In this document: piece after piece, positions 7,036-43,012 of the stretch | Position numbering within the stretch: position 1 is the stretch's first letter | Layout of the letters: each line of letters begins with the position of its first letter | Assembly: GCA_029775915.1 (NCBI GenBank) | Contig: JARVKA010000001.1 | Coordinates: forward strand, 286,594-350,593 | Source of the DNA: Nitrososphaeria archaeon | GTDB lineage: Archaea; Thermoproteota; Nitrososphaeria; Nitrososphaerales; JANXEG01 | Length of the DNA stretch: 64,000 nt | Direction: 5' to 3' | The notes under the pieces: model-generated | The model's input: the letters and a program-made list of their open reading frames with translations, nothing else | What the model was told of the DNA's origin: nothing | Database searches by the model: none | Translations under genes and position numbers: made by a program

Positions 7036-7123
7036 TGGCGCTGGGGGCGGGATTCGAACCCGCGAGGCCTTATCGGCCACAGACTTAGCAGGCCTGCGCC
7101 CTACCAAGCTAGGCGACCCCAGC
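7036..7123 (-). tRNA. tRNA-Ser (GCU), no intron
   Basis: On the minus strand the acceptor stem GCTGGGG pairs with CCCCAGC, followed by discriminator G and an encoded CCA. The anticodon stem CAGGC/GTCTG (one G-T pair) carries loop CTGCTAA, giving anticodon GCU. A long variable arm GGCC-GATAA-GGCC marks a class II tRNA, and the T arm is GCGGG-TTCGAAT-CCCGC. No intron is needed. Its 3' end faces the integrase remnant, so it is the likely attachment site of the lost element. Confidence 0.95.
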
Positions 7124-7673
7124 TATTTTTTAAATGAGTTTAGCGCATTATAAATTTTATTCAAATTCTTAAATAACATTATCTCTTTTTTCTCACATAT
7201 AAAGTTGATTTTTAATGAGGATTTAATATTCTTAAATTAGCCACTTGTTATCATACTCATTGAGTATTATCTTTCTTTTTGATAAAATGGTTATGTAGAT
7301 CTTATATTTTTAAGGCTTTATTTGTCTATTTAACAAAAATAAAGGTTTAATTATTCAATTATGGGCACAATCATCTTCAATACTTGTTTTAAAGATTATT
7401 TCTTTCGGATTTTGAAGCTTATTTGCTATCCGAATTTATCCATCATTTAATACATATTTTGAAGGTAACGTATTAAAAGTTCAATTAAAGATAAATTTAA
7501 CGTATAAAATTATGTGTGATGATTTTTAATGTGTAAATCTAATATTTAAGGTATATTTTTCTCAATAAATAAAAAAGCTAAGCAATACTTCTCATTTATT
7601 GTTTTTTATTTTACAAATTGTAAAATTTTGTTAACCAATTTCCTAATTAATTCTTCTAACTAAAAAGTTAGTT
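7124..7673. other. Gene-free AT-rich spacer
   Basis: About 550 bases without a supported protein gene. It contains long A/T runs and just before the structured RNA a small perfect hairpin CTAACT-AAAA-AGTTAG (7657-7672), possibly part of its promoter or leader. TTTATTTTAC-like stretches near 7605-7615 could serve as box A for that RNA. I see no repeat of the tRNA-Ser 3' end here. Confidence 0.5.
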
Positions 7674-7907
7674 GCCGTCAGCTCGGGAGAGGGGCAGATT
7701 CGCTAACACTAAGGTAGCATTGAGGAAGGCCTCAATGCTTGGTACCAGTTAGCGAGCGGCTACATGGGTAGAGCGGAGGTAGATGGGGAAACCCGTCTAC
7801 ACCTTCCGAACCATGTAGCTGTGGGCAAACCTAGGCGGTGGTGAGAAGGTAAAAACCGCGTAACTACCGCCAAAGGAAAGCCACATTTGTCCCGAAAGGC
7901 TGGCGGC
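7674..7907 (+). ncRNA. Large structured RNA of unknown class, about 234 nt
   Basis: A GC-rich island in AT-rich surroundings, with a closed fold. P1 is GCCGTCAGC (7674-7682) with GCTGGCGGC (7899-7907). P2 is TCGGGA (7683-7688) with TCCCGA (7890-7895). Three inner arms follow: CGCTAAC (7701) with GTTAGCG (7748), capped by the perfect hairpin GCATTGAGG-AAGG-CCTCAATGC; GGCTACATGG (7758) with CCATGTAGCT (7811), ending in a GAAA tetraloop; and GTGG (7821) with CCAC (7881), enclosing GGCGGT (7834)/ACCGCC (7866). Unpaired segments are purine-rich and the GNRA loop is on this strand, so plus is the coding strand. It ends exactly at the stop codon of the converging gene. RNase P RNA was considered, but its CR-I and CR-V motifs are not in the right places. 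Confidence 0.75.
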
Positions 7908-8567
7908 TTATAAACTCTCTAAAAAAGAAGTAGTGCTCACTCTTTGAATGTAACTTTCTAAATCAATCTCATAAACATTACAATTATCAATATCGAGTAT
8001 GAATATAGAGTGAAGTTTAGCATTCCTTAATTGCTCAATCGTAATGGGAGGTTTTGTGTAATAAAGATCGCATAAATTCTTTAAACTCATAACCTCATCT
8101 TGAGTTCTATATCTCGGTGGCTTTTGAAAGATTGCAGATATGGGGAGTAAGTTATTTGGTGGCGTACCTAAGCTAAATTTGGCTGCATAAGCACTATACC
8201 TAGCTATTTTACTCACAATTCTAGCTTTATTGTAAATTAAAGGTTCTAAAGCATATTCAGGAGGTACGAAACCAGTTTCAATCTCTATGATTAATGCTCC
8301 ATCACCTTTTAATCCATATACATCACAAATAAGATCCTCTGATAATTTATGCTCCACATTAACTTTATAACCCATTTTGAGTAAGTTGTGAGCACAAAGG
8401 AGCTCGAGTGCTGAATGATTTATTTTTACAAGCCCCTTTGTATAAAGCTTAATGAGTTTCTCCTTAATTTTATCAAGCTCTTCACTATTTACCTTATACT
8501 TATTTTTTAGCCTTTCTAACAAAGTTGTGAGATCTCTCTTAAATTTCTTCACATCCAAAGGCTTCAT
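7908..8567 (-). CDS. Conserved protein with a PD-(D/E)XK nuclease-like core
   Basis: A 219-residue protein. Residues 1-60 are helical and rich in lysine and leucine, like a winged helix or coiled coil. The middle has LLKMGYKVNVEHKL, then DLICDVYG, then ALIIEIETGFVPPEYA. The spacing of a conserved Asp before an ExE on the next strand resembles the PD-(D/E)XK fold of restriction and Holliday-junction nucleases, though the lysine of the motif is missing or replaced. Activity is therefore uncertain. It sits alone between two large RNA genes: its stop touches the end of the structured RNA, and 144 bases separate its start from the SRP RNA. Confidence 0.6.
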   Translation of the reverse strand: MKPLDVKKFKRDLTTLLERLKNKYKVNSEELDKIKEKLIKLYTKGLVKINHSALELLCAHNLLKMGYKVNVEHKLSEDLICDVYGLKGDGALIIEIETGFVPPEYALEPLIYNKARIVSKIARYSAYAAKFSLGTPPNNLLPISAIFQKPPRYRTQDEVMSLKNLCDLYYTKPPITIEQLRNAKLHSIFILDIDNCNVYEIDLESYIQRVSTTSFLESL

Positions 8568-8711: not shown

Positions 8712-9026
8712 GGCGGCGGCTCCGTCGGGGTTCATGCCCCAATCAAGCCCCATTCCCAACCTTACATCGTCAACCACGTGGGCGTAGCAGCGTAGCCACC
8801 CTGCTTTACGGTTGCTCCCTCCCGGACCTGGCCGAGTTCAGCAGTTGGAGGTTTACCCTTCCCTTCGGAAGGGCTACCTCTTGTGACCACCCACTACGGC
8901 GCGGAATCATCCATGTAAGGTTGATGGGTATCTCAATTGAGGCACTTTAGCCGACGGTTACTGGCCCCTGCATATAGCCGTTTTCAGGTTGAGGAGACGG
9001 CTAGCCTCCAAGCCCTACCCGCCGCC
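8712..9026 (-). ncRNA. SRP (7S) RNA
   Basis: On the minus strand GGCGGC at the 5' end (9026) pairs with GCCGCC at the 3' end (8712), as in helix 1 of archaeal 7S RNA. The S domain is clear: GGCCAGGTCCGGGAGGGAG followed by CAACCGTA forms helix 8, with the asymmetric loop that binds SRP54. The tip CCCTTCCGAAGGGAAGGG belongs to helix 6, bound by SRP19. About 315 nt, normal for archaea. It has the same orientation as the tRNA-thiolation gene behind it. Confidence 0.95.
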
Positions 9027-35641: not shown

Positions 35642-35733
35642 GGGCCAGTCGTCTAGCGGTTAGGACAACAACTAATGGTTGTTAAGCCCTTACACGGCGT
35701 AGGTCCCAGGTTCGAATCCTGGCTGGCCCACCA
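35642..35733 (+). tRNA. tRNA-Val (UAC) with a 16-nt intron in the anticodon stem
   Basis: Acceptor GGGCCAG pairs with CTGGCCC, then A and encoded CCA. T arm CCAGG-TTCGAAT-CCTGG. The anticodon loop CTTACAC gives UAC, but the 5' anticodon strand is interrupted. Removing 35670-35685 (16 nt, between positions 28 and 29) yields ACGCC/GGCGT and a 76-nt tRNA. The segment forms a hairpin AACAAC/GTTGTT with flanking exon bases. Splice points could move by a base or two. Confidence 0.88.
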
Positions 35734-42921: not shown

Positions 42922-43012
42922 GCGGGATTGGTCTAGTGGTTAGGATACCAGACAGCAATGGGTGAACCCCCCAAGCTGGTGGTCGCGGGTTCAAATCCCG
43001 CATCCCGCACCA
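42922..43012 (+). tRNA. tRNA-Gly (probable CCC) with a 15-nt intron
   Basis: Acceptor GCGGGAT pairs with ATCCCGC, discriminator A, encoded CCA, T arm GCGGG-TTCAAAT-CCCGC, D arm GTCT/GGAT. The anticodon stem CCAG-C/GCTGG is complete only if 42952-42966 (15 nt) is removed between positions 30 and 31. That gives a 76-nt tRNA with loop CCCCCAA and anticodon CCC. Position 33 would then be C, not the nearly universal U, so the exact splice or the reading may be off. The G1-C72 and GCG start fit glycine. Confidence 0.7.

Follow-up and report, generated by a model that had tools for sequence, protein, structure and literature searches.

A previously undescribed structured RNA family in archaea with an uncharacterised protein as partner candidate

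What is the large, closed RNA fold that lies in an AT-rich spacer of a Nitrososphaeria archaeon genome (assembly GCA_029775915.1, contig JARVKA010000001.1), and is it a divergent form of a known RNA or something new? The initial annotation of the 64,000-nucleotide stretch analysed here (hereafter the window) described a structured RNA at 7674-7907 with two consecutive closing helices, three arms and a GNRA tetraloop. It left the class unassigned and named an aberrant RNase P RNA as the main alternative. To answer this question, we examined the fold, its conservation in related genomes, its genomic setting and its relation to known RNA families.

Fold, conservation and distribution of the RNA

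The observation holds. The segment at 7674-7907 (+) folds into two stacked closing helices and three arms, with a minimum free energy of –129 kcal/mol for 271 nt against a shuffled mean of –81 (z = –8.9), and none of 200 shuffles was as good. The outer helix P1 has 10 pairs (7674-7683 with 7898-7907) and P2 up to 9 pairs (7691-7699 with 7885-7893), whereas nine and six had been counted in the initial annotation. P1 and P2 are separated by a 7x4 purine-rich internal loop, in which J1/2 (7684-7690, CGGGAGA) faces GAAA at 7894-7897. The RNA has a GC content of 56%, whereas the upstream spacer has only 21%. No ORF of 60 aa or more overlaps the RNA, which speaks against a coding sequence, and it ends within a few bases of the stop codon of the convergent gene at 7908-8567 (–), hereafter c0. 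No DNA match to a phage or plasmid was found, and such an origin was rejected.

Arm 1 (7700-7755) consists of a lower stem (7700-7707/7748-7755) and an upper stem (7716-7725/7730-7739), with a conserved tip of GG-N-AAG-CC type that finds the RNA by pattern in other genomes. Arm 2 (7756-7822) is of variable length and carries the GAAA tetraloop at 7788-7791. Arm 3 (7823-7884; 7824-7882 in the fold) has a near-invariant core of GGGCAAACC (7823-7831) and GGAAAGCCAC (7875-7884), in which the pairs G-C, G-C and C-G are kept unchanged in 52-55 of 56 sequences. The AU that follows (7885-7886) belongs to P2.

Compensatory base changes in related genomes had been proposed in advance as the test of this fold, and they were found. 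A DNA search revealed a 90% identical copy in the one other genome of the genus and distant copies in the order Nitrososphaerales. A MAFFT alignment of 11 copies, not fitted to structure, yields 57 pairs with 95.7% of cells paired and 32 pairs with double changes, and 0 of 500 shuffles scored as high. In a larger alignment of 56 copies, 93.2% of cells are paired and 52 of 57 pairs change on both sides. Here the covariation score is 0.754, compared with 0.263 for shuffled alignments, none of which reached this value, and about 0.1 when slid. As this alignment is model-fitted, the MAFFT result is the less biased of the two. In the 56 copies, 9 of 9 modelled pairs of P1 change on both sides with 96% of cells paired, as do 8 of 8 modelled pairs of P2, 7 of 7 in the lower stem and 8 of 10 in the upper stem of arm 1.

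A first covariance model found matches in 50 of 400 genomes of the order across nine families, nearly all full-length. A second model, built from 32 diverse copies, found matches in 59 of 300 genomes of the class, as well as two outside it: genome G440 at 112 bits and genome G528 at 46 bits. These counts are lower bounds, since only a few candidates per genome were scored. In the window copy, the two models match over 1-225 and 1-226, respectively. The families with copies include f2 (Nitrosocaldus) and f10 (a Thaumarchaeota group), and further copies lie in the Caldarchaeales-type genomes Terraquivivens and Calditenuaceae. Three genomes with copies, G055, G082 and G085, look like Nitrososphaera gargensis, N. 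viennensis and N. evergladensis. Some soil-type genomes hold several copies. One of them, G175, carries six diverged copies on separate contigs with different neighbours, which may be true multicopy or mixed strains. In another metagenome-assembled genome (G066), two contigs give the same RNA score and the same neighbour genes, probably an assembly duplication.

The interpretation of the initial annotation, a conserved functional RNA of unassigned class, is supported. An Rfam match, in particular to the archaeal RNase P model RF00373, had been named as a result that would overturn it, yet cmscan found no family at the gathering threshold and only chance lines at E up to 10. Moreover, 14 homologue loci gave no Rfam hit at E up to 1. 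A full-length canonical archaeal RNase P RNA (221 bits, 1-288 of 288) lies elsewhere in the same genome, at G000:C2:56394-56680, and Nitrososphaera sp. UBA217 likewise carries both RNase P RNA and the RNA described here. The SRP RNA of the window is also separate (8714-9024, –), about 150 bases beyond c0, and the order tRNA, RNA, c0, SRP RNA is kept in the sister genome. The tRNA-Ser gene near the RNA (7036-7123) is longer in that genome (locus L004, 1115-1214), as if it carried an intron that the window copy lacks. Elsewhere in the window, ARAGORN calls tRNA-Ile(aat) at 35642-35733 and tRNA-Ala(agc) at 42922-43012, whose anticodons are unusual for archaea and which are possibly intron-containing tRNAs misread.

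Genomic setting and the neighbouring protein c0

Across 54 copies, TATA-like 8-mers peak at –32 to –28 from the 5' end of P1, with 33 hits in this interval against about 1-2 per position elsewhere. In the window itself, TAATTAAT at 7644-7651 (+), about 23-30 bases upstream of the RNA, is only a candidate TATA-box-like site. Copies in family f9 share a conserved upstream element (GATATAC..GATCTATATTGAT...TTTTTAT) although some flanking genes differ, an unusual conserved promoter. A TTTT run lies within 25 nt of the 3' end in 31 of 54 copies, compared with 12% of random positions in the same loci. The downstream gene and its strand vary by clade, which together with these signals argues for a stand-alone, trans-acting RNA and against a leader.

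The recurring neighbour is c0, which encodes a 219-aa uncharacterised protein and lies within 2 kb of the RNA in many families. It is convergent and adjacent in the window's own genus, f8, Terraquivivens, Calditenuaceae and outside the class (f30, G528), directly upstream in tandem in Nitrosocaldaceae and f3, one gene downstream, also in tandem, in f10, and about 1.3 kb away in some Nitrososphaera. Thus, orientation has changed while adjacency stayed. In f9, f13, G400, G440 and most Nitrososphaeraceae, however, the two are apart. A phosphoribosyltransferase-like gene is a second recurrent neighbour (10 loci), so part of the linkage may be ancestral gene order.

Searches with c0 against Pfam, NCBIfam, PADLOC and PDB sequences returned no family, although the protein is conserved, usually as a single-copy gene, across Nitrososphaeria, Bathyarchaeota and Brockarchaeota records. 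We utilised AlphaFold2 to predict its structure (pLDDT 90.5). The model has the alpha-beta-beta-beta-alpha-beta core of PD-(D/E)XK nucleases, and Foldseek matched it to CdiA-CT, XisH, NucS/EndoMS, Hjc, Bax1 and Can2, albeit with modest E-values of 2e-3 to 0.1. This is a fold-level inference, and nuclease activity was not assayed. Invariant residues include E55, D82 and E95-x-E97. The last motif has E-x-E in place of E-x-K, as in BamHI, so that the residues observed leave catalysis uncertain.

To determine if the RNA and c0 occur together, we searched 39 Nitrososphaeraceae genomes of at least 90% completeness. The RNA search found 15 genomes and the protein search 14, and the single genome with c0 only, G073, proved to hold a weaker but full-length RNA match (30.7 bits) near its c0. 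In total, 14 genomes have both, 2 the RNA only, none c0 only and 23 neither, so that presence and absence agree in 37 of 39 genomes and in 10 of 10 genera. Fisher tests gave p values of 8e-9 for genomes and 0.005 for genera, but these ignore relatedness. The agreement is seen although the two are mostly unlinked in this family (in G082, c0 lies at 137 kb and the RNA at 1.61 Mb). An RpoB tree places the RNA-bearing genomes on one side of a weak branch (82/64), and with outgroups the genera that lack both fall in an unresolved fork, so one to three joint losses are possible. Genome G012 (family f12) lacks c0 and shows no RNA, a possible further case. By contrast, f4, f14 and most f9 genomes keep c0 without a detected RNA, which may be divergence or absence. 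The RNA was found without c0 in G017, G094 and G206, which are incomplete or fragmented MAGs, and a search beside Bathyarchaeal c0 genes found no adjacent RNA.

Possible functions of the RNA

That this RNA family is real and new is near certain, whereas its function is not shown. The computations themselves establish the conserved P1-P2-closed multi-junction with three arms and its compensatory changes, the promoter-like and terminator-like signals, the lack of an Rfam relative, the recurrent adjacency to c0 and the matching presence and absence in one well-sampled family. What we infer from these data is a function. We hypothesise that the RNA is the scaffold or specificity subunit of a ribonucleoprotein with c0, a predicted PD-(D/E)XK nuclease-fold protein. 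In this view, P1/P2, the near-invariant arm-3 core and the arm-1 tip would form the protein-binding platform, and the RNA would position or restrain the nuclease on its nucleic-acid substrate. We tentatively assign this reading a probability of about 0.42. There is no direct evidence of binding or expression, the joint absence in Nitrososphaeraceae may reflect as few as one event, and ancestral adjacency could let one deletion remove both genes. A bolder version, which the data allow but which we consider somewhat less likely, is an ancient archaeal ribonucleoprotein of two components not described before, acting as an RNA-scaffolded or RNA-directed nuclease in the information processing of Nitrososphaeria.

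The strongest rival, only somewhat less likely than our main reading, is a trans-acting regulator or housekeeping RNP with no functional tie to c0, in which the adjacency is inherited gene order and the joint absence is one deletion. This would fit the unlinked copies (f9, f13, G400, G440 and most of f7), the c0 genes without a detected RNA in f4 and f14 and beside no RNA in Bathyarchaeia, and the recurrent phosphoribosyltransferase gene. However, adjacency with changed orientation is kept across family and class borders, and presence and absence agree where the genes are mostly unlinked.

It is unlikely that the RNA is an antitoxin-like inhibitor or decoy of a toxic c0 nuclease, as the nuclease-fold neighbour and the linked loss might suggest. 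c0 is a single-copy, near-universal chromosomal gene (35 of 40 genomes), is often unlinked from the RNA and has no PADLOC match. The tandem pseudoknot repeats upstream of the toxin gene that characterise type III systems are absent, the RNA being a single unit in variable orientation to c0.

Similarly unlikely is an RNA-modification or rRNA-processing guide of H/ACA-like or U3-like type, for which the multi-arm layout, the archaeal setting and an ACA directly after the arm-3 closing stem (GCC-ACA) could speak. No Rfam guide family matches, the arms are enclosed by P1/P2, and the ACA lies only a few bases from the internal loop instead of about 14-16. A kink-turn was looked for by eye in J1/2 and arm 3 without a canonical one being seen; with the ACA present but pocket spacing and k-turn not matched by inspection, the H/ACA hairpin criterion is left undecided, and rRNA targets were not searched.

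A riboswitch-like leader is less likely still. In f10 the RNA does lie 43-48 nt upstream of a phosphoribosyltransferase gene on the same strand, and its core faintly recalls that of GEMM-I, but the downstream gene and its orientation differ between clades, convergent genes follow it in the window, f8, Terraquivivens and Calditenuaceae, the RNA has its own TATA and U-tract, and no Rfam riboswitch matches. Finally, an aberrant RNase P RNA or an RNase MRP-like paralogue is very unlikely despite the size, the closed multi-arm layout and a GGAAAG that recalls CR-I, since it is contradicted as the genome's RNase P, 14 homologue loci lack any such match at E up to 1, and no P4-like pairing of a CR-I/CR-V core is seen in the consensus, although pseudoknots were not modelled.

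Relation to known RNAs

Large, deeply conserved structured RNAs with no known family are rare, and few are known in archaea beyond rRNA, RNase P, SRP and guide RNAs. The present RNA is widespread among ammonia-oxidising archaea, which are among the most abundant cells on Earth, appears to include cultured Nitrososphaera species among its hosts, and comes with a specific protein partner candidate, so that its function is open to direct testing. If the pair is an RNP nuclease, it would be a new RNA-protein machine. No family model describes the RNA, nor did any paper found in searches of the open literature, and we regard it as categorically new as an RNA family, a view that would weaken if it proved to be a diverged form of a known RNA.

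The nearest in kind is Tan1 of marine group II Euryarchaeota (PMC5069720), an unassigned, abundant archaeal ncRNA of 229 nt with a complex fold that is reported only from Thalassoarchaea; homology of sequence and structure to Tan1 was not examined here. Archaeal H/ACA guide RNAs share several arms and an ACA after a stem, but in the present RNA the arms are enclosed by P1/P2, no k-turn was recognised and no Rfam match was obtained. The GEMM-I c-di-GMP riboswitch (RF01051) has a core resembling GGCAAACC...AAAGCC, a lead only, whereas the position of our RNA is trans-acting, its overall architecture is different and the family model does not match. With archaeal RNase P RNA (RF00373), it shares a size of about 230-290 nt, a closed multi-helix architecture and a stand-alone archaeal gene, but there is no sequence or structure match, and the canonical RNase P RNA is a separate gene of the same genome.
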